Source: a virus. Taken from it: 29,551 nt of DNA. The stretch lies in the IMG/VR virus record IMGVR_UViG_3300034121_000421, positions 1 through 29,551 of that record. One strand, written 5' to 3'. Below the pieces are notes generated by a model that saw only the letters and a program-made list of their open reading frames with translations, was not told the DNA's origin and did not search any database. A program made the translations under genes and the position numbers. Shown here piece after piece: positions 2,833 through 26,349 of the stretch (its first letter is position 1; each line of letters begins with the position of its first letter).

Positions 2833-3260
2833 CAGGTCACCACGATGTTGCGGCGCAGAGCATCAGAGCCCATGCGCATCAGTGAGGGGATTTGTTCAAT
2901 GGCAGGGAGACCACCGATTTGGGTTTGGTTCGTCAGCGTCCCCAGCGTCGTAACGTTGACGGTTTGCCCGTTGATGCTGACGCCTTGCCCCGCGATGTTT
3001 ACTCGCAACTGCCCAGCGGCGTCAGGCATCGCCATGCCGACGGAGCGTGTCAGCGATTGCAGCAGTGTGCGGATTGCAGACAGTTGCTCGACGAGCTCGC
3101 CCACGCCTTGAATCGGCATCGGGTTGGAGAGGGAGACGTCGCCATCACTGACGCCGTCGGCGCCGACGACCATTTTGATGCGCTGGTGAAGGTTGCCGCC
3201 GATGTCGTCGGCGGCAATCGTTGCGCCACTGCCAGGTGTGTAGCCAATGTTGTCGGCCAT
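2832..3260 (-). CDS. hypothetical virion-associated protein, 142 aa
   Basis: The N-terminus (IGYTPGSGATIAADDIGG) and the following NLHQRIKMVVGADG are of a kind often seen in small phage structural proteins encoded beside fibres; I know this as a recurrent phage pattern but cannot name a family. A helix at about 55-75 (GELVEQLSAIRTLLQSLTRS) is followed by beta segments (GQLRVNIAGQGVSINGQTVN). The start overlaps the stop of the 133-aa gene (TGATG) and the stop overlaps the start of the 480-aa gene, so the three are translated as a block. A fibre attachment or chaperone role is possible. Confidence 0.6.
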   Translation of the reverse strand: MADNIGYTPGSGATIAADDIGGNLHQRIKMVVGADGVSDGDVSLSNPMPIQGVGELVEQLSAIRTLLQSLTRSVGMAMPDAAGQLRVNIAGQGVSINGQTVNVTTLGTLTNQTQIGGLPAIEQIPSLMRMGSDALRRNIVVT

Positions 3261-3661
3261 CAGACGTTCCCATCAGTGATGGTCAACGACGTGATTTCAA
3301 CAGGCTGGCCCGCGACAATCGTCGTCGTCGTGACGTTGAGGTCGGAGCCGCTGTTGGCAACGTCGCCGTCGCACACAAACGCGCCCGTGGAATCGACGAG
3401 ATAGAAGAACGCCGCCGTGCCGCTGTTGTTGGCGCTTGTGTCGGTGCGTGGCGTGGTGATGGTGAACACGCCGCCCGTCGAGGTGCCGCAAGGATCGGCC
3501 AGCAGAATGTCCGCCAGAAGAAGCCCAGCGGGCGCAGCGCCCTTTGTCGGTTTGCTGCCGCTGTAGATGCGAAGAAAGCCACCGGTCGCGCCAGCGTCGA
3601 CCGCAGCGCGGATAGCGTCGACGCGAGTGTTGCGGACTGTGTCTGCGATACGGACGGCCAT
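3260..3661 (-). CDS. hypothetical virion-associated protein, 133 aa
   Basis: The ATG at 3661 has a GAGGTGACCTG ribosome site. After a helical N-terminus (MAVRIADTVRNTRVDAIRAA) the protein is mostly beta. It contains GGFLRIYSGSKPT and, further on, AFFYLVDSTGAFVCDGDV, phrases that recur in short phage structural proteins of unassigned function. It is the first gene after the hairpin at 3682-3707 and overlaps the 142-aa gene. A virion component is likely from context and composition. Confidence 0.6.
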   Translation of the reverse strand: MAVRIADTVRNTRVDAIRAAVDAGATGGFLRIYSGSKPTKGAAPAGLLLADILLADPCGTSTGGVFTITTPRTDTSANNSGTAAFFYLVDSTGAFVCDGDVANSGSDLNVTTTTIVAGQPVEITSLTITDGNV

Positions 3662-10678: not shown

Positions 10679-12036
10679 CAGACCACCTCAGCGTGGAGGA
10701 TGAGGTCCAGAGAATAGAGAGGCACGCCCGCGCCGATGGCTTGCGGCTCATAGGTTGTCAGCGCGTCTTCAGAGAAATGCACCACGTCGACAAGCGTCGA
10801 GAATGTCCGAGGGGCTATGGTTGTGCCGGATGACAGCAAGACGTCATGCATCTCTACAGACGCGCCAGCACCGAATCGTTCGATGAAGCCCTCAAGCGTG
10901 TCAGCAGCGGTCAAGAGCGCATCGACGACGAACGTCCGCGACAGGTGAACGAACCCAAGCGACACACGCCAGGACTGCATACGGTCGCTCCTAGACACGC
11001 CAGAGACGCGACCGCTCGCCGCACGGGTGACACTGGCCACCCGCTCGGAGAACGGTTCCAGAATCGCGTAGGCGTCGTTTGAGGCCCATGCAGCAGCACA
11101 TGACCGGGTCGACACCTTGGGCGTTGCGTCGTTGGCAGTGCTTGCGACGATGCCGATAAGCGCCATGTCAAACGTCGTCGAGCCGTCGACGACAACGCCG
11201 AAGGTGTCGGTTCCAGTGGCACGCGTGATGGTCAGCAAAGTATGCGACGCATCTACATTGATGCTTTGCGCAGCAGAGACCGTGTAGGTGTTGCCGCCGC
11301 CGCCGAACGCATCAAGCCCGTTTCTGATTGCGAGAGACAGCTCATTGGTTGGCCCTGTCGCCACCGCGCCAGTGGTTACAACGTAGGGGCCGGGTGTCGT
11401 CGCATCCTCAGTTTGAACGCCCCACATGAGGACCGATCCCGTAGCGGCTGGGATGCCTGCAGGGTAGGTTAGAAAAAGATTTGAGTTTGCGGCAACGATT
11501 CCATTGGCGGTGAAAGAAACTCGCCACCATCCGCTTCCTACATCTGTTGGGGTGTAGAGTGTGCCGCTACCTCCCACGGTCGACAGCGTAGGGGTACCAT
11601 CTGTTGCCCATGTGATTCTGACGATGTGGCGATCAACACCTGCCGTGTTGTCGTAGCAGTCAAAGTCGGTGATTGATGCAGCGCCAGATGCTGGACGTTT
11701 GACGAAAACTGAAACCACCTTCGTACCGTTGCCAGTGTAGGTCACGCCGATTGAAGCGCCCGTGCTGCTTACGGCGGAAGTCATCGTCAGGAGATACGCA
11801 CTGCCACCGTTGGGGCTGATTGCAGCGTTGGCGGTCGCCGAACAGTTCGCAGATAGCGTCCACGTCGCCGAGAAGTTTTCGCTTTGCGTGATCAGGTTCG
11901 TCGCGTAGGCGCCGCGCAGATAGTAGGTGCCAATCGCAAGGTCGACGTTGCCGACCGCGCCACCCGCCTCACGGAAGCGCAAGCGTTTATTGGCATCGGT
12001 CACAACGATGGCGCCAAGCAAGACAGGGTAACTCAT
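10678..12036 (-). CDS. tail tip protein with inserted lectin-like domain, 452 aa
   Basis: Residues 1-45 and about 225-452 look like one beta-rich tail protein, perhaps a distal tail protein given its place between tape measure and hub. Between them, residues about 46-224 form a carbohydrate-binding-like module. Its hallmarks are N-L-I-T-Q-S-E-N-F near 47-55, VVSVFVKR near 107-114, GSGWWRVSF near 168-175, and MWGVQTED followed by PGPYVVTT near 204-222. This pattern recurs in many phage virion proteins (concanavalin-like domains). The DNA coding for it looks less GC-rich than its flanks, which fits a mobile domain. It may bind host surface sugars. The start overlaps the tape measure stop (ATGA). 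Confidence 0.65.
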   Translation of the reverse strand: MSYPVLLGAIVVTDANKRLRFREAGGAVGNVDLAIGTYYLRGAYATNLITQSENFSATWTLSANCSATANAAISPNGGSAYLLTMTSAVSSTGASIGVTYTGNGTKVVSVFVKRPASGAASITDFDCYDNTAGVDRHIVRITWATDGTPTLSTVGGSGTLYTPTDVGSGWWRVSFTANGIVAANSNLFLTYPAGIPAATGSVLMWGVQTEDATTPGPYVVTTGAVATGPTNELSLAIRNGLDAFGGGGNTYTVSAAQSINVDASHTLLTITRATGTDTFGVVVDGSTTFDMALIGIVASTANDATPKVSTRSCAAAWASNDAYAILEPFSERVASVTRAASGRVSGVSRSDRMQSWRVSLGFVHLSRTFVVDALLTAADTLEGFIERFGAGASVEMHDVLLSSGTTIAPRTFSTLVDVVHFSEDALTTYEPQAIGAGVPLYSLDLILHAEVV

Positions 12037-13565
12037 CGTCCACCACGTCGACGGCCAGTGTTGACCGCCTTTGATATTTCTCGCGCCGTGTCCTCGGGGA
12101 GAGGACCGCCGACACCGTATGCCACATTCACGACGAGCGGGCCACCACCGCCGTTGCCACTGCTACGGCCAGGGCTGGCGCCTTTGTCGCGAGATGCGGA
12201 CCTGTCAGGTGATGGCGCTTTTGCTGCGCTCGACACCATCGACGCCGCAACCTCAGCGCCACCAACGGCGATGGCTTGACCAGCTGCAATGAGTGCAAGA
12301 CCGCCAGCAAGCGGGACAGCACCAGCCGGGTTGCCGGTGAAGAGTTGGGCCAATCCCGTTGCAGCCGACTCAGCGCCTTTCAACGTGATGAGGTCGCCAG
12401 CCTGTTGCGCCAGACCTTGAAGCAATATCGCCCCGGCATCTTCCTGCCCCTTGGCAGCAGCCACAGCAGATTGAGCGATGATCGATGACGTCTGCATCAG
12501 TTGGCCGGTCACGAATGCGGCTTGGGATTCAGCGATGCTTTGCTTCTTGCTCGCCTCATCTTCCGCGATCTTCACGCGCTCTTCTGCTTGGCGTCTCTCC
12601 TCCTCGGTCGCTTGCTTGTCCATGCGTGCTTGCTGTTCACGCGCTGCCGATTCGTTCTTCAGTCGATGCGCGATGGCTTCATCTCGCATCTTGGTAACAA
12701 ACATCATGTTTTGTTCTGCGACTGTGCTCTCTTCCATCGCCTCAGGTTTGACGACGGTAGGGCCAGACCGTGCCCCGGTTGCCCTTCCGCCGCCTGACTT
12801 GGGCTTGTCCCTCTCAATCAGTTTGTTCATAACCTGAGCTTTTGCTTCAAGCTCATCAGCTTTTTGAATCATCAGGTCAGCTTCTTTTCGCATCCGTTGT
12901 CGGTCTGCGAAGGCGATGACCTTGTCAGCAGCCATCGACTGATTGGACAACCGGTTGGCGTCGGCTCGTAGTTTCATCGACTCTTCTGCAACCGCAAAAA
13001 AGTCTTGAACCTTAGCGCCTTCTGGATCGAGTTCCCTTATGAGTCCTTGCGTTTCAGTCCTGATGTCCTGAATTGATTTAGACAGTTTGACGATGCCGTC
13101 AGTCATCTTGTGAAACTTGACGTCGTCCAACCTTTCTGCCTCAAGGCGAGCATCTTCAAAATGGTCTGTGACTCCTTGAATCAACGCTATGCCGCCAATG
13201 AGCGCAGCAGCGAAAGGACCGCCAGCGCCGAACGCCGCAGCCATCTGCCCAGCACCGGCAACCATCTTTCCGACTTGCCCGCCCATGCCCTCCATCGACG
13301 ACGACACCAACGAGATAGCGGCGGCCTGTTTGCCCAGGACGTCGGGCATTTTGCCGATGCGTTGTCGCAACGTCTCGGTAGACGTCGCCGTCGTCGACGC
13401 TACCTTGCCCTGTTCCTTGATTGCCGCCGTCGCCTTCGCTGTCTCAGTTGCTAGCGCCCGCTCATTGCCGACAAGAGAAGCCGCCGCTTTGTCGACTTTC
13501 GCCAACTCCGTGTTGGCTTGCGTCGCATCGGCAGTGATTGTGTATTTGACCTGTTGATCGCTCAT
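12033..13565 (-). CDS. tape measure protein, 510 aa
   Basis: The protein is nearly all helical, with long charged coiled-coil stretches (about 150-260 and 300-365, for example EEERRQAEERVKIAEDEASK). Two hydrophobic Gly/Ala-rich segments stand out near 110-135 and 425-460. A low-complexity Gly/Arg/Ser region precedes a short C-terminal domain. It follows the frameshifting chaperone pair and overlaps its stop (ATGA at 13562-13565), the standard position for the tape measure gene. It sets tail length; at about 1.5 angstrom per residue, 510 residues would give a tail near 75 nm, short for a siphovirus. No peptidase or lysozyme domain is visible. Confidence 0.85.
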   Translation of the reverse strand: MSDQQVKYTITADATQANTELAKVDKAAASLVGNERALATETAKATAAIKEQGKVASTTATSTETLRQRIGKMPDVLGKQAAAISLVSSSMEGMGGQVGKMVAGAGQMAAAFGAGGPFAAALIGGIALIQGVTDHFEDARLEAERLDDVKFHKMTDGIVKLSKSIQDIRTETQGLIRELDPEGAKVQDFFAVAEESMKLRADANRLSNQSMAADKVIAFADRQRMRKEADLMIQKADELEAKAQVMNKLIERDKPKSGGGRATGARSGPTVVKPEAMEESTVAEQNMMFVTKMRDEAIAHRLKNESAAREQQARMDKQATEEERRQAEERVKIAEDEASKKQSIAESQAAFVTGQLMQTSSIIAQSAVAAAKGQEDAGAILLQGLAQQAGDLITLKGAESAATGLAQLFTGNPAGAVPLAGGLALIAAGQAIAVGGAEVAASMVSSAAKAPSPDRSASRDKGASPGRSSGNGGGGPLVVNVAYGVGGPLPEDTAREISKAVNTGRRRGGR

Positions 13566-14496
13566 CGGTGCCTCTTCTCAATCTCAGCCGTGCGGGCAGC
13601 ACGTCCACTGGCGATAATCTCAAAGGCGTCGATGGTGTGCGGCGACAACGACGACAACGCGGCAACGCCGGGGTTGCCTTCGCATGACCGCCACAGCGAC
13701 AAGGTGCCGACGACGTCGCTGTTGTTCAACAGGTGACGTCGTGGACAAGTGTCGCTCGCATATTCAGTCCCGACAAACGACGTCATGCGCCCGCCTCCGT
13801 GACAACCAAGCAAGTCGCGCCGTGGAGCGGGACACCGACGACAATCAAACTCCGTCAGGTCAACGGCTGTAGCCGCCCACAGCGCAGTGCTTTTCCCGGT
13901 GGCAACTCCAAGAAGTATCGCACGGCGTCGTGGAATGGCACCAGAAGACCCGCCAGTCGCAGACCGGGCAGAGACTCGGCCAGCGTCGAGCGCATGCCTT
14001 GCAAGCCCGTTACGCTCGCCAGGCATACGGTGATCATCTCTTCGTAGAGAAGACACAGCCGTTCGTCGGCATCGCGCTTGCCCTCGTCGTCGGTCGCATC
14101 TCGCCAAGCACGCCAGGCCGATGCACGCCGCGCTACCCACCCGCGCCGTTGCGCGTCAGAGCACATGCGCAGCGTGACCGACACGCCGTCGAGGTCTTCG
14201 TTGTCGACGTATTCGCCGGGGTCGGCCAGCGTGTAGCCAGACACAAGACCCGCGATGGTGCGGGCCGATGCCCCAACGCCCGACGTGTCACGCGCTACGA
14301 TGGCCGCAGACAGCGTTGTGTCGGCAGATGCGACCGCTCGCCAATCCGTCGAGTCATCGAGCGGCACGTTGGACTTGGTGCGTGCCGCAATCTCGGCAAC
14401 GACAGCCGCACGGGAAGCGTCGTGCGCTTCCCGCAAGATGGCTTGCAGCGAGACCGGCTCGCCAACGTCGCCGGGGTAGAGAAGAAGCGCCGCCAT
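13562..14496 (-). CDS. tail assembly chaperone GT fusion made by -1 frameshift
   Basis: Ribosomes that start at 14496 can slip back one base on the heptamer at 13891-13897 and continue in the -1 frame to the stop at 13562. This adds 109 residues (beginning STALWAATAV) to the first 202 residues of the G product, giving a 311-aa protein. The -1 frame has no start of its own suited to this region, and it ends in an ATGA overlap with the tape measure gene. In lambda and many other long-tailed phages the G and GT products are chaperones that load tube protein onto the tape measure and are absent from the virion. Location, length ratio and slippery site all fit. Confidence 0.85.
13855..14496 (-). 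CDS. tail assembly chaperone G, 213 aa
   Basis: This is the zero-frame product. The ATG at 14496 overlaps the stop of the tail tube gene (TGATG), and the frame ends 12 codons after the slippery site. The N-terminal part includes PVSLQAILREAHDASRAAVV. A helical region with many Trp and Arg (GWVARRASAWRAWRDATDDE) and a C-terminal helix leading to ELPPGKALRC follow. Sequence conservation in this family is weak, so the call rests on position between tail tube and tape measure and on the frameshift signal. The G form is expected to be made in large excess over GT. Confidence 0.8.
   Translation of the reverse strand: MAALLLYPGDVGEPVSLQAILREAHDASRAAVVAEIAARTKSNVPLDDSTDWRAVASADTTLSAAIVARDTSGVGASARTIAGLVSGYTLADPGEYVDNEDLDGVSVTLRMCSDAQRRGWVARRASAWRAWRDATDDEGKRDADERLCLLYEEMITVCLASVTGLQGMRSTLAESLPGLRLAGLLVPFHDAVRYFLELPPGKALRCGRLQPLT
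13891..13897 (-). promoter_or_regulatory. -1 ribosomal frameshift site G_GGA_AAA
   Basis: In the G reading frame the codons are CCG GGA AAA GCA, which presents the X_XXY_YYZ heptamer GGGAAAA. After slipping, reading goes on as GGG AAA AGC in the -1 frame. Seven nucleotides downstream, GCTGT and ACAGC can pair around an 8-nt loop, a spacing usual for stimulatory hairpins. Lambda uses the closely similar GGGAAAG at the same place. Confidence 0.85.
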
Positions 14497-15737
14497 CAGC
14501 CCACCGCCAACACGGCAGGGAGTGCGCCAGTGCCGACCGCCGTGAAGCGCATGCGTGACAGACCGTTGACGACAGCCGTCGTTGCAACGAAATCAGCCGT
14601 GGGCAGCAAGGCGTACATGATGGCGCCGACGTCGGAGCCGACAAGCAAGGCAACCTCACGCACCGTCGAGACGGCGCCAGCGTTGACGTCGCTTCCAAGG
14701 AGCGGAACCATCGCGGCGTCCGTGAGCTCACCCGTCAGGGCAGGCGACGTTGCGCCAATGAGAACTTCGCCTTCGATGGTGAAGCTCTTCCCATCGCCAG
14801 CGCCGCACACACCACCGAGACGACCGTTGCCGCCGATGGTGTCGACGTCTCGGATCTGCGTTGCGTTGTTGTAGTTGATCGACAGGTTGCTGGCGAAATA
14901 CTCGACGCCGTCGATCAGCAGGCGCACACGGTCGGCGACGATGGGTGAGCCCGCCGTCGGCTCAGCGTGGGCCGGGTCGGCTTCTGCAACGTCAGCCCAT
15001 GAGGTCGGAGAGAAGACCGACGACATGCCGACGATCTGGCCACTGGCGAGCGACAGCGCCATGCTCATTGGAGCGCAGCCGAAATAGTCGCGGCGCCATG
15101 ACTCGCCCTCGCCAGTCAGGAAGGCGTGGACGTGGTGCGTGACGGAGTCGGAGACCGTGTAGACGGCCATACGGAAGACCGTTTCGCCGGTCGTTGGCGT
15201 GCCGGTGTAGGGGTGGTCCAGCGTCAACGACGTGGTGCCGCCACCGCTTGCAATGCGACCCATCTGGATCGTCGTGTTGGGTGCCGTTCCGGTCTTGAAC
15301 GCAATGACCTGCCCGTTGGCCGTAGTCAGGCCAGCGACAGCGAGAATGCCCGACAGTGGAGTGTGACCAGTCGCCGCGATGGTTGGAGCAACGCCCGTGG
15401 TCGCAGGCGCAACGGCGCCGAACATGGACTGCAACAGCAGCCCCTGCTCCATCTTCCCTTCCCATGCAGCGACAGCGCCGCCGCTGTTGCTGTCGACGCC
15501 ACGGAACTCCGTCGCCAACGTGATATCGGCAACGTCTTGGGCGCCGCGAGCATGGGTGTAGCGGCGTCCGCCAATGGACCGCAGACTGCGAGCAAGCGCC
15601 ACGCGATTGCGAGGGTAGAGCCCAGCGACGTCGTCGGTGCAGCGCAGAGGGAACAACGTGCCGGGGGTGCCGGTGAACGTCGACGAATCGGTGTGCAGAG
15701 CGTGGCGGACTGTCAGCAGGCGGCTTACGTCGGTCAT
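14496..15737 (-). CDS. major tail tube protein, 413 aa
   Basis: The protein follows a tail completion gene and precedes the chaperone pair, where the tail tube gene lies in siphoviruses. It is beta-rich with many Gly, Thr and Ala. It contains a tube-like segment near residues 275-330 (VRLLIDGVEYFASNLSINYN, then FTIEGEVLIG) that matches the strand-turn pattern of phage tail tube folds. The N-terminal 35-75 region includes ARSLRSIGGRRYTHARGAQ. At 413 residues it is longer than the usual 150-300. The extra material near 110-200 (ATGHTPLSGILAVAGLTTAN and beyond) may be a surface-exposed Ig-like addition. The start overlaps the previous stop (ATGA). Confidence 0.75.
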   Translation of the reverse strand: MTDVSRLLTVRHALHTDSSTFTGTPGTLFPLRCTDDVAGLYPRNRVALARSLRSIGGRRYTHARGAQDVADITLATEFRGVDSNSGGAVAAWEGKMEQGLLLQSMFGAVAPATTGVAPTIAATGHTPLSGILAVAGLTTANGQVIAFKTGTAPNTTIQMGRIASGGGTTSLTLDHPYTGTPTTGETVFRMAVYTVSDSVTHHVHAFLTGEGESWRRDYFGCAPMSMALSLASGQIVGMSSVFSPTSWADVAEADPAHAEPTAGSPIVADRVRLLIDGVEYFASNLSINYNNATQIRDVDTIGGNGRLGGVCGAGDGKSFTIEGEVLIGATSPALTGELTDAAMVPLLGSDVNAGAVSTVREVALLVGSDVGAIMYALLPTADFVATTAVVNGLSRMRFTAVGTGALPAVLAVG

Positions 15738-23661: not shown

Positions 23662-23736
23662 GTCCCGTCCCGTTCTTGCTGCCTTTGCCGACGGGACAAA
23701 AACCCACAAATCCCGTTCCGTCCCGTTCAGTCCCGT
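23658..23736. repeat. iteron-like TCCCGT repeats at the primase 3' end
   Basis: TCCCGT occurs at 23658, 23663, 23668, 23711, 23721 and 23731 on the plus strand, and an inverted copy (ACGGGA) stands at 23691. Steps are 5 bp in the first group and 10 bp in the second, where TCCCGTTCAG is repeated in tandem. The last copies lie inside the final codons of the primase gene. Such spacing puts repeats on one face of the helix, as in iterons or clustered operator sites. Confidence 0.55.
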
Positions 23737-25727
23737 TCAGTGGTTTTCGACTGTTTCGCCAGTATCAGACCGCTAGACCGGACCGGATCGATCACTGCCC
23801 ATCCGTGAGTTCTGGCAGCGATCAGACCGCAATCAAGCAAATCCCGGATCAGCCGTCCCGGTTGTCCCGATGGCTTGAGGTGGGTGTCGATGGTGCTTTC
23901 GGTCCAGCCGTTGTTCACTGACAGGTACTGACGCAACGCGGCACGGGTGAGGTAGGGCAGGCCGTCGAGCGTTTCGGCGCCAGAGCCCCACCAAGCGTTC
24001 TCAAAGACTTTCCTGTTCTTGGCACCGGGTTGCTCCTTCTCGCGCACTGGAGGGGCTTCAGCGGCCGCTAGGATGGCGCTTGTGACCGGTGCGCCATCTT
24101 CATCCAACCAACCTGGGATCGTCACGCTAGCCAGTTGGCCAAAGACCGGCGGCAGAAGTTCGGCATCCTTGGATTTCTTTTGCGCGATGGTGATCACCTT
24201 GTCCTTGCAGGTGACGGAGACCTCGATATCGAGCGCCCCACGCCAAGACGAACTCCCACGCGCCCGCCCTTGTGCCTCATCCGACACGCCAGTGTGATGC
24301 ACCAACAGGACGGAGCATCGAAACTCGGACATCAACGCCGCGCAACTGTCGAGCATGGCCTTGGCGTCTTGTGCGCTGTTCTCGTCGCCACTCAAGAACC
24401 GATGCAGTGTGTCGACGACGATCAACGCCGGACGGACGGACAGGGCCGCGATGGCGTCTTTGGCCTTGAGCAGTCCGGCCTGTGTGTCGAGGTCGCAACC
24501 GCTCGACGACAGCAGCAGATTCCCTCGAGGGATCGCGGTGTTGCTCGTTTGCCATGCCGCGAGACGCCCTCGGAGCCCGTGGTGGCCCTCGCCAGCCAGG
24601 TAGACTACGGCGCCTGGCTTGACCTTGGCACCCATCCAATCGGGCACGGATGCCGCCATGCGGCAGCACCAATCCAAGACGACAAACGTCTTGCCGCTAC
24701 CCGACGGGCCGTGGACCATCATCAACGCCTCGGATTGAGCCCAGCCTTTGATCAGCCAGGAGATGGGGGCCGGTTGCGCAGAGAAATCGACGGCATCGAT
24801 CAGCCACTCGCCAACCGACGGAGACAGCAGCGCGGTGAGGTCTTGACCGGCTTGGACGTAGTCGTTGGCGTCGCCGGGAATGGGAGGGATCACATACCGG
24901 ACGCCATGTTTTGCGCACGCCTGTTCGGCGGCTCGGAGCCCGACGTGGCCCTTGTCGTTGTCGGCGACGATTGTGATGCGGTTACCGTAGAGCCCAACGA
25001 GCGTGCCCGCGACGTCGACAAGGTTGCTTGCGCTGTAGGCGATGGCGCATGGTCGACCCTGAACCTCATGGATGGTTGCCGCCGTTGCGAACCCTTCCGC
25101 CAGATAGATCACGCCGTCGCTTGGGACGTCGCCAAGCCGCCAAAACTTGCCCTTGACCTCACCGCCAGGGTGGTAGCGTTTGCCGCCGTCGCCGTCGATG
25201 TATTGCAGGCTTGAGATCCCGCCGTCGACGCCAAACAGCGGAACCACCAGCTTGCCATCCGACGTCACCTTGGAGCCGTGCGCCTTGACTCCCTTGCGTT
25301 TCAGGTAGGGGTGATCATCGGACGCCGACGGGAGATCATCCCAGATTTCTTCGACAACCTCGGAGATGACTTCACGCTGTCGAGCGACCTCAGCGTCTCG
25401 GATGGTTCGCATCTCCGCCATGCGTTTGGCGTGCGCGATCTCTTCAGCCGGGGTCATCGAAGGCCCGCCTTCAGCAGCCCATGAGGCGTCAATCTGACGA
25501 CGCCAGCAGCCAAACCGTCCAGCGGGTCGACCGTCGGAGTAGGCGACGTACCAGCCGTTTGTGTCCCGACCCTTGCCAGCGGTGCTTTTGAAGCGGTGGA
25601 TCTTGCCGTCGAGCGTCACCGACGCCGGAGGGTTGATCCCTTCGTAGGCTATGGCGTCGATCAGTTGCTGTTCAGGCGTCCTGTCGTCGACGGCGTTGGC
25701 GTGGAACGGGCGATCAAACTTGACCAT
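23727..25727 (-). CDS. TOPRIM primase / RepA-type helicase, 666 aa
   Basis: This single protein probably primes and unwinds DNA for phage replication. The N-terminal part (40-80, HRFKSTAGKGRDTNGWYVAY) resembles the start of phage-type primases. The TOPRIM domain spans about 205-290 with LAEG (E211), ADND (D256, D258) and the following GDANDY. The C-terminal ATPase is RepA-like: Walker A GPSGSGKT at 340-347, Walker B LIVVDT at 435-440, the VHHTG motif at 476-480 and R-G-S-S-S-W-R-G-A-L-D at 490-500. No zinc-binding cysteine set is seen at the N-terminus. The start overlaps the GIY-YIG stop by 14 bp. The last codons lie in the TCCCGT repeat cluster. Confidence 0.9.
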   Translation of the reverse strand: MVKFDRPFHANAVDDRTPEQQLIDAIAYEGINPPASVTLDGKIHRFKSTAGKGRDTNGWYVAYSDGRPAGRFGCWRRQIDASWAAEGGPSMTPAEEIAHAKRMAEMRTIRDAEVARQREVISEVVEEIWDDLPSASDDHPYLKRKGVKAHGSKVTSDGKLVVPLFGVDGGISSLQYIDGDGGKRYHPGGEVKGKFWRLGDVPSDGVIYLAEGFATAATIHEVQGRPCAIAYSASNLVDVAGTLVGLYGNRITIVADNDKGHVGLRAAEQACAKHGVRYVIPPIPGDANDYVQAGQDLTALLSPSVGEWLIDAVDFSAQPAPISWLIKGWAQSEALMMVHGPSGSGKTFVVLDWCCRMAASVPDWMGAKVKPGAVVYLAGEGHHGLRGRLAAWQTSNTAIPRGNLLLSSSGCDLDTQAGLLKAKDAIAALSVRPALIVVDTLHRFLSGDENSAQDAKAMLDSCAALMSEFRCSVLLVHHTGVSDEAQGRARGSSSWRGALDIEVSVTCKDKVITIAQKKSKDAELLPPVFGQLASVTIPGWLDEDGAPVTSAILAAAEAPPVREKEQPGAKNRKVFENAWWGSGAETLDGLPYLTRAALRQYLSVNNGWTESTIDTHLKPSGQPGRLIRDLLDCGLIAARTHGWAVIDPVRSSGLILAKQSKTTERD

Positions 25728-26286
25728 TGGTAGCCTCGTGGCGAGAGAGGTAGGCTTGAATGGCGGTAAACTTTGAATGGCTGATGTTCAGCGCGCCGTT
25801 CTTTCGGGCTCTGTACAGAGTTGCCAACGAGATGCCTGTTGCCTCTGCCAACTCTTTTAGGTTCGCCTTCTTCAACATCTTTGCGACCTCGCAGTTGTCG
25901 TACTTCGACAACCCAGTTTTGATTCGCCATGCCTGATGTGCGCCACGGCGCGCCACATCGGCGCGCCTCTCCCGTTCACCTGATTTGGGGTTCTTATTCA
26001 ACACGGTGGCGGTGTTGAGGATCAATGACTCTGGTACGAGCCTCATCGCCCACCACTCAAAGGCGTCCATGCAGTCGGTGTCGCAGTTGTGGACCACGAT
26101 CCACTCAAACGCATCAGGACCCCACATCGACCACGACGACTGAAGCGGTTTGCAGTGATGCAAACCGGCTGAAAGTTGTCGGCGGTGTTGTCCCCACCGC
26201 TTTCGGAAACTGTACGTCTGGCCGATGTACACCGCACTCGTGTGTCGGTTCCTGATTGCGTAAACCCCTGAATCTTCTTTTGCCAT
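25714..26286 (-). CDS. GIY-YIG endonuclease-like protein with C-terminal HTH, 190 aa
   Basis: The ATG at 26286 was chosen for its AAGGAG site; the frame stays open upstream, but there it crosses the inverted repeat between the arms. Residues 7-9 (GVY) and 20-22 (YIG), the following YSFRKRW with a probable catalytic Arg, GLHHCKPLQSSW and the WAMRLVPESLILNTAT region give a GIY-YIG nuclease domain of about 95 residues. A helix-turn-helix at about 143-182 (LKELAEATGISLATLYRARK) is of Cro/XRE type. Nuclease plus DNA-binding domain is the plan of homing endonucleases, but its place as first gene of the arm could also suit a regulator or recombination nuclease. It is translationally coupled to the primase gene. 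Confidence 0.8.
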   Translation of the reverse strand: MAKEDSGVYAIRNRHTSAVYIGQTYSFRKRWGQHRRQLSAGLHHCKPLQSSWSMWGPDAFEWIVVHNCDTDCMDAFEWWAMRLVPESLILNTATVLNKNPKSGERERRADVARRGAHQAWRIKTGLSKYDNCEVAKMLKKANLKELAEATGISLATLYRARKNGALNISHSKFTAIQAYLSRHEATNGQV

Positions 26287-26317
26287 GGCACTCCTTCTCA
26301 TTTTTGAGGATCTGTAC

Positions 26318-26349
26318 TTGACCGTAGTTCTCATCCGTGAGAAGGTCAA
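26318..26349. promoter_or_regulatory. large inverted repeat between the divergent arms, operator candidate
   Basis: TTGACC and GGTCAA (outer arms) and TTCTCA and TGAGAA (inner arms) form a 12-bp interrupted palindrome with a 4-nt asymmetric insert (GTAG) and a 4-nt centre. A further TTCTCAT is at 26295-26301, next to the ribosome site of the GIY-YIG gene. No good -10 can be paired with these elements, so promoter positions are uncertain. The site is well placed to control both arms. Confidence 0.55.

Follow-up and report, generated by a model that had tools for sequence, protein, structure and literature searches.

The slip site of phage lambda is GGGAAAG. Many long-tailed phages have conserved a low-level −1 frameshift that produces G and GT; in lambda, the G part acts with the tape measure and the T part with the tail tube (PMC5009743). 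The heptamer GGGAAAA is itself a published slip site, that of the tail assembly chaperone gene of actinophage Bush (PMC11749239). We addressed a comparable locus in a viral sequence record, all 29,551 bases of which are referred to here as the window. The sequence makes it very probable that a long-tailed phage encodes a G/GT tail-assembly-chaperone module at this locus, with −1 frameshifting predicted at GGGAAAA.

Reading frames of the window and their conservation

The G and T reading frames lie on the minus strand of the window, together with the following features:

14496..15737, minus strand: major-tail-protein-like gene (tail tube candidate), directly upstream of G, assigned by position
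14496..13855, minus strand: G-like zero-frame ORF of 213 aa, predicted tail assembly chaperone, closed by TGA at the 12th codon past the heptamer
13897..13891, minus strand: slippery heptamer G_GGA_AAA in X_XXY_YYZ phase, read from the sequence and invariant in relatives
13875..13890, minus strand: nearly invariant, doubly coded stretch after the heptamer, GCNNTGCGCTGTGGGC, from aligned relatives
13866..13883, minus strand: GCTGT/ACAGC pairing, present in the window and not conserved in relatives
13562..13891, minus strand: T-like extension in the −1 frame, with 109 codons starting at AGC, a TGA at 13564..13562, and four conserved cysteines, identified as stop-free and by dN/dS
13562..14496, minus strand: predicted GT fusion of 311 aa (202 zero-frame and 109 −1-frame residues), with the frames joined at the heptamer
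12033..13565, minus strand: tape-measure-like gene of 510 aa, assigned by position and composition, with an ATGA overlap with the end of T

At the slip site, the zero frame reads CCA CCG GGA AAA GCA CTG CGC TGT GGG CGG CTA CAG CCG TTG ACC TGA. The first-pass annotation had described this frame as CCG GGA AAA GCA followed by a stop 12 codons later, which is exact to the base, with TGA as the 12th codon past AAA; its claims of a −1 frame that continues for 109 residues and of an ATGA overlap with the tape measure gene likewise agreed with the sequence, in which this frame runs from AGC to the TGA at 13564..13562 and the ATG of the tape-measure-like gene lies at 13565..13563. The −1 frame is open upstream to 14155, so that the zero and −1 frames overlap for 99 codons. 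Across the 30 ORFs (8,861 codons) of the window, the GGGAAAA at 13897..13891 is the sole in-phase canonical X_XXY_YYZ site, and when the codons of G were shuffled, an in-phase canonical heptamer inside the overlap with the open −1 frame arose in 1.3% of shuffles. The order tail-tube-like gene, G, T, tape-measure-like gene fits a G/GT module both in order and in size, with the two end genes assigned by position.

The first-pass annotation had proposed a comparison with relatives for conservation of the heptamer and of the −1 frame. Searches of IMG/VR with G and T recovered 29 further loci that extend as far as the site. All 30 loci, the window included (26 distinct 120-mers), keep GGGAAAA in phase, and in each the zero-frame TGA ends 43 nt from the heptamer's first G. 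The −1 frame was not closed in these relatives: in the part of T that is singly coded, the T frame contained no stop in 18 of 18 sequences, whereas the other two frames contained 0–4 stops per sequence, with stops in most of the 18. Over the same part, dN/dS was 0.00–0.30 in the T frame (13 pairs) and above 1 in the other two frames; the T frame is under purifying selection. In one relative, L049, a Val codon (GTG) replaces the Leu codon (CTG or TTG) of the others, and the overlapping zero-frame TGA is retained there. Identity among relatives was 53–100% for T and 40–98% for G (IMG/VR), and between the clade of the window and the L011–L021 clade, T (53–58% identity) was better conserved than G (about 45%). 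A conserved block of T, GKSxALWAATAVDLT..DCxxCP...GC, precedes residue 38.

Searches of Pfam, PHROGs v4, and NCBIfam 20 with G and T gave no significant profile match, a sequence search of solved structures with the G and T profiles gave nothing useful, and no family match was found for the tape-measure-like and tail-tube-like candidates of the window. A tblastn search of the phage collection with G and with the tail tube candidate also gave no match. A genome scan for prophage copies returned one 17-residue match in Mycolicibacterium, which was taken as chance. The AF2 model of G (pLDDT 84.5) had as its top neighbors among solved structures 3klu (YqbN, Z 5.7) and 2ob9 (the HK97 tail assembly chaperone, Z 5.4), both of them weak matches (Z < 6). 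Its neighbors among viral models, also weak, included the chaperones of Molivia, Loki, 521B, and K1H, and its best match in BFVD was a named tail assembly chaperone at a Foldseek E-value of 0.012, which is weak (E > 0.01). The assignment of G as a putative chaperone rests on its position and on the predicted frameshift; the weak fold matches of the model favor it but are not decisive. The AF2 model of T (pLDDT 57.6) was too poor for a structure search.

Several other ORFs of the window were observed. The product of the ORF at 25714-26349 contains a GIY-YIG nuclease domain (Pfam E 5.8e-11) and has weak C-terminal helix-turn-helix matches; the ORF adjoins a Toprim/AAA primase-helicase-like gene (23727-25727). 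A minus-strand ORF at 730-1221 translates into GAVTLDAVSVAGVGT-type repeats, which may be those of a tail fiber or tip, and a 480-aa protein encoded at 1390-2832, in the tail-tip region, shows weak Kelch motif matches (Pfam E 9e-4) and is possibly involved in receptor binding.

A four-cysteine T domain in cultured phages

Searches with T gave a sub-threshold match (E 0.2) in Agrobacterium phage JP1. The matching region lies immediately ahead of that phage's tape measure gene and is in the −1 frame, preceded by an A_AAA_AAC. A search with the JP1 T detected homologues in Rhizobium phages L338C, P11VFA, RHph_I4, and RHph_TM16 and in Rhodobacter phages RcTiptonus, RcKickapoo, RcMenchie, RcDurkin, and RcZahn, as well as a match in Alteromonas phage P24 that was not significant alone. 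Seven cultured phages from four host genera (JP1, L338C, RHph_I4, RHph_TM16, RcTiptonus, RcZahn, and P24) were then examined. In all seven, T closely precedes the tape measure gene and is shifted by −1 from the frame of a small ORF ahead of it, an in-phase AAAAAAC, AAAAAAG, or GGGAAAC lies near the end of that ORF, and T contains four cysteines in the pattern CxxC...C...CP; homologous cultured loci are annotated with the order expected of G/GT, between tail tube and tape measure genes. An hhalign comparison of T from the window's group with the cultured T gave a probability of 95.4% (E 1.8e-8), against 0.1% for unrelated control pairs, and a profile comparison of G from the window's group with the cultured-phage G revealed no detectable sequence relation. 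Further viral contigs, scanned with single T proteins of the cultured phages, also carry a site (AAAAAAC, AAAAAAA, or GGGAAAC) with these T domains. Zinc or metal binding by the four cysteines of T would be a guess from the motif.

The first-pass annotation had warned that gene calling by single frames would lose the T part or give it a wrong start, and this is the case in the cultured phages, where T is either omitted or recorded as a hypothetical protein with a late start. In particular, T is annotated as hypothetical with a late start in JP1 (JP1_032), L338C (L338C_032), RcTiptonus (gene 43), RHph_I4, and RHph_TM16. The record of P24 (MK241539.2) leaves the T frame (2974-3312 of locus L090) without annotation; it lies between a chaperone-like ORF and the phage's tape measure gene. 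In RcZahn (MW677529.1), T is annotated as a separate "tail assembly chaperone" (gene 28) that starts after the stop of the first ORF. A study of Rhodobacter capsulatus phages described RcZahn as without clear evidence of frameshift sequences (PMC8601537); the in-phase A_AAA_AAC that we observed at the end of gene 27 (3001-3007 of locus L087), with the four-cysteine T in the −1 frame, bears on this published negative.

Routes into T and RNA signals around the heptamer

We propose that most ribosomes would translate G (213 aa) and terminate at the TGA, and that a minority, with Gly and Lys tRNAs on G_GGA_AAA, would slip back one base, re-pair on GGG AAA, and continue in the −1 frame to yield GT (311 aa) as a minor product. 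By analogy with lambda, G may form a coat on the tape measure protein, and GT may recruit the tail tube protein through its T part.

The way into T is narrowed by seven loci (L012, L014, L016, L021, L039, L041, and L042), which represent six distinct sites, as L041 and L042 are identical there. In each of them, a stop closes the −1 frame shortly ahead of the heptamer, and none of the three open codons between stop and heptamer is a start codon. The first ATG, GTG, or TTG after the heptamer falls at T residue 38 in L012, L014, and L016, at residue 62 in L039, and at residue 83 in L041 and L042, with L021 as an exception (TTG at residue 14); three of the four conserved cysteines precede residue 38. 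The upstream −1-frame stop, the zero-frame stop, and the late starts together imply that the switch from the zero frame into T falls in a stretch of about 18 codons that contains the heptamer. Because the −1 frame is stopped upstream and there is usually no start codon before residue 38, frameshifting is the plausible route, and FRAMESHIFTING, not a separate start, is plausible as the way into T in the seven loci.

These observations bear on the alternative that T is a separate gene, read from an internal start coupled to the end of G with no fusion made. Several cultured-phage records do annotate T in this way, and in RcZahn an ATG at a TAATG overlap lies in the T frame, so that in this phage a separate start is possible. 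However, most members of the window's family have no ATG, GTG, or TTG between the heptamer and T residue 38, the residues ahead of the first possible start are among the most conserved of T, and the in-phase heptamers present in every case would be unneeded by separate starts; for the window, we therefore hold this alternative to be very improbable. Still less credit can be given to transcriptional slippage on an A run, rather than ribosomal frameshifting, as the source of the fused product. A6 or A7 runs are found in some cultured relatives, but the run at the window site has only four A's and is fixed as GGGAAAA in 30 of 30 loci, and for polymerase slippage both the G triplet and the codon phase would be dispensable. 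Metagenomic contigs do contain errors, and a sequencing or assembly indel could in principle have split one ordinary ORF; yet the identical two-frame layout and stop position recur in 30 loci from many metagenomes, with an equivalent in seven isolate genomes, and to judge from these relatives the indel reading is already refuted and its chance practically nil.

Ribosomal frameshifting, the reading that we favor, raises the question of RNA signals around the heptamer. The first-pass annotation had pointed to a GCTGT/ACAGC pairing 7 nt past the heptamer; the pairing is present in the window and begins at that distance, but it is not conserved as a stimulator. We rejected it as a conserved stimulator, with its middle U-A pair missing in 14 of 21 distinct sequences and no compensatory change. 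RNAalifold predicted neither a covarying pair nor a conserved structure downstream of the site. Compared with shuffled sequences, the region of the site in the window showed no gain in folding at a length of 69 nt (z 0.39) and only a small one at 49 nt (z −1.5). Upstream of the heptamer, no conserved Shine–Dalgarno-like element was observed in the aligned flanks of relatives; a candidate GGAG was also rejected, as TGGAG in the window's clade is TCGAG or TTGAG in others.

The stretch that follows the heptamer is nearly invariant. At 13875-13890, the third positions of the T-frame Ala GCG and Leu CTG are invariant in 26 distinct sequences, and third positions a few codons later vary freely. Selection seems to act there, either on the G tail (A-L/V-R-C-G) or on the RNA. 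As both frames run through GCNNTGCGCTGTGGGC, its conservation can be explained by constraint on the two proteins (ALW in T and RCG in the G tail); possibly this stretch is also a direct RNA signal. A wider reading would make T an uncatalogued zinc-binding (Cys4) family that is spread across phages with several proteobacterial hosts and joined, via a frameshift site, to unrelated or very diverged G proteins, with GCNNTGCGCTGTGGGC as a stimulator other than a simple hairpin; we offer this reading tentatively and consider it rather unlikely as it stands.

Comparison with described systems

As both −1 frameshifting to G and GT in long-tailed phages and the use of GGGAAAA in Bush have been published, the mechanism is already known; what is new is this member, the four-cysteine T family absent from the searched libraries, and the corrected readings of annotated phages. 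The locus adds one more probable case of conserved recoding, in a phage group without a cultured close relative. It also provides a marker, an in-phase heptamer with CxxC...C...CP in the −1 frame ahead of the tape measure gene, which recovers the missing chaperone half in isolates where T is a truncated hypothetical protein or is omitted.

In lambda, G/GT lies between the tail tube and tape measure genes, the place that the assignments by position would give it in the window. Both have a −1 frame, a heptamer of the G_GGA_AA type close to where G ends, and a T that ends at the tape measure gene, in the window the tape-measure-like candidate. The two differ in that lambda has GGGAAAG and the window GGGAAAA, and in that T of the window has four conserved cysteines and its G and T fall outside the families of Pfam, PHROGs, and NCBIfam. 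Actinophage Bush shares the identical heptamer in the same kind of gene and belongs to a different phage group. The HK97 tail assembly chaperone (2ob9) and YqbN (3klu) are the closest structural neighbors of the G model, at a sequence identity of 6–15% and with the weak Z scores given above. The T loci of the seven cultured phages differ from the window in their heptamers (AAAAAAC, AAAAAAG, and GGGAAAC) and in the various distances of the zero-frame stop; they share with it a homologous four-cysteine T, the predicted gene position, an in-phase heptamer, and the −1 frame.
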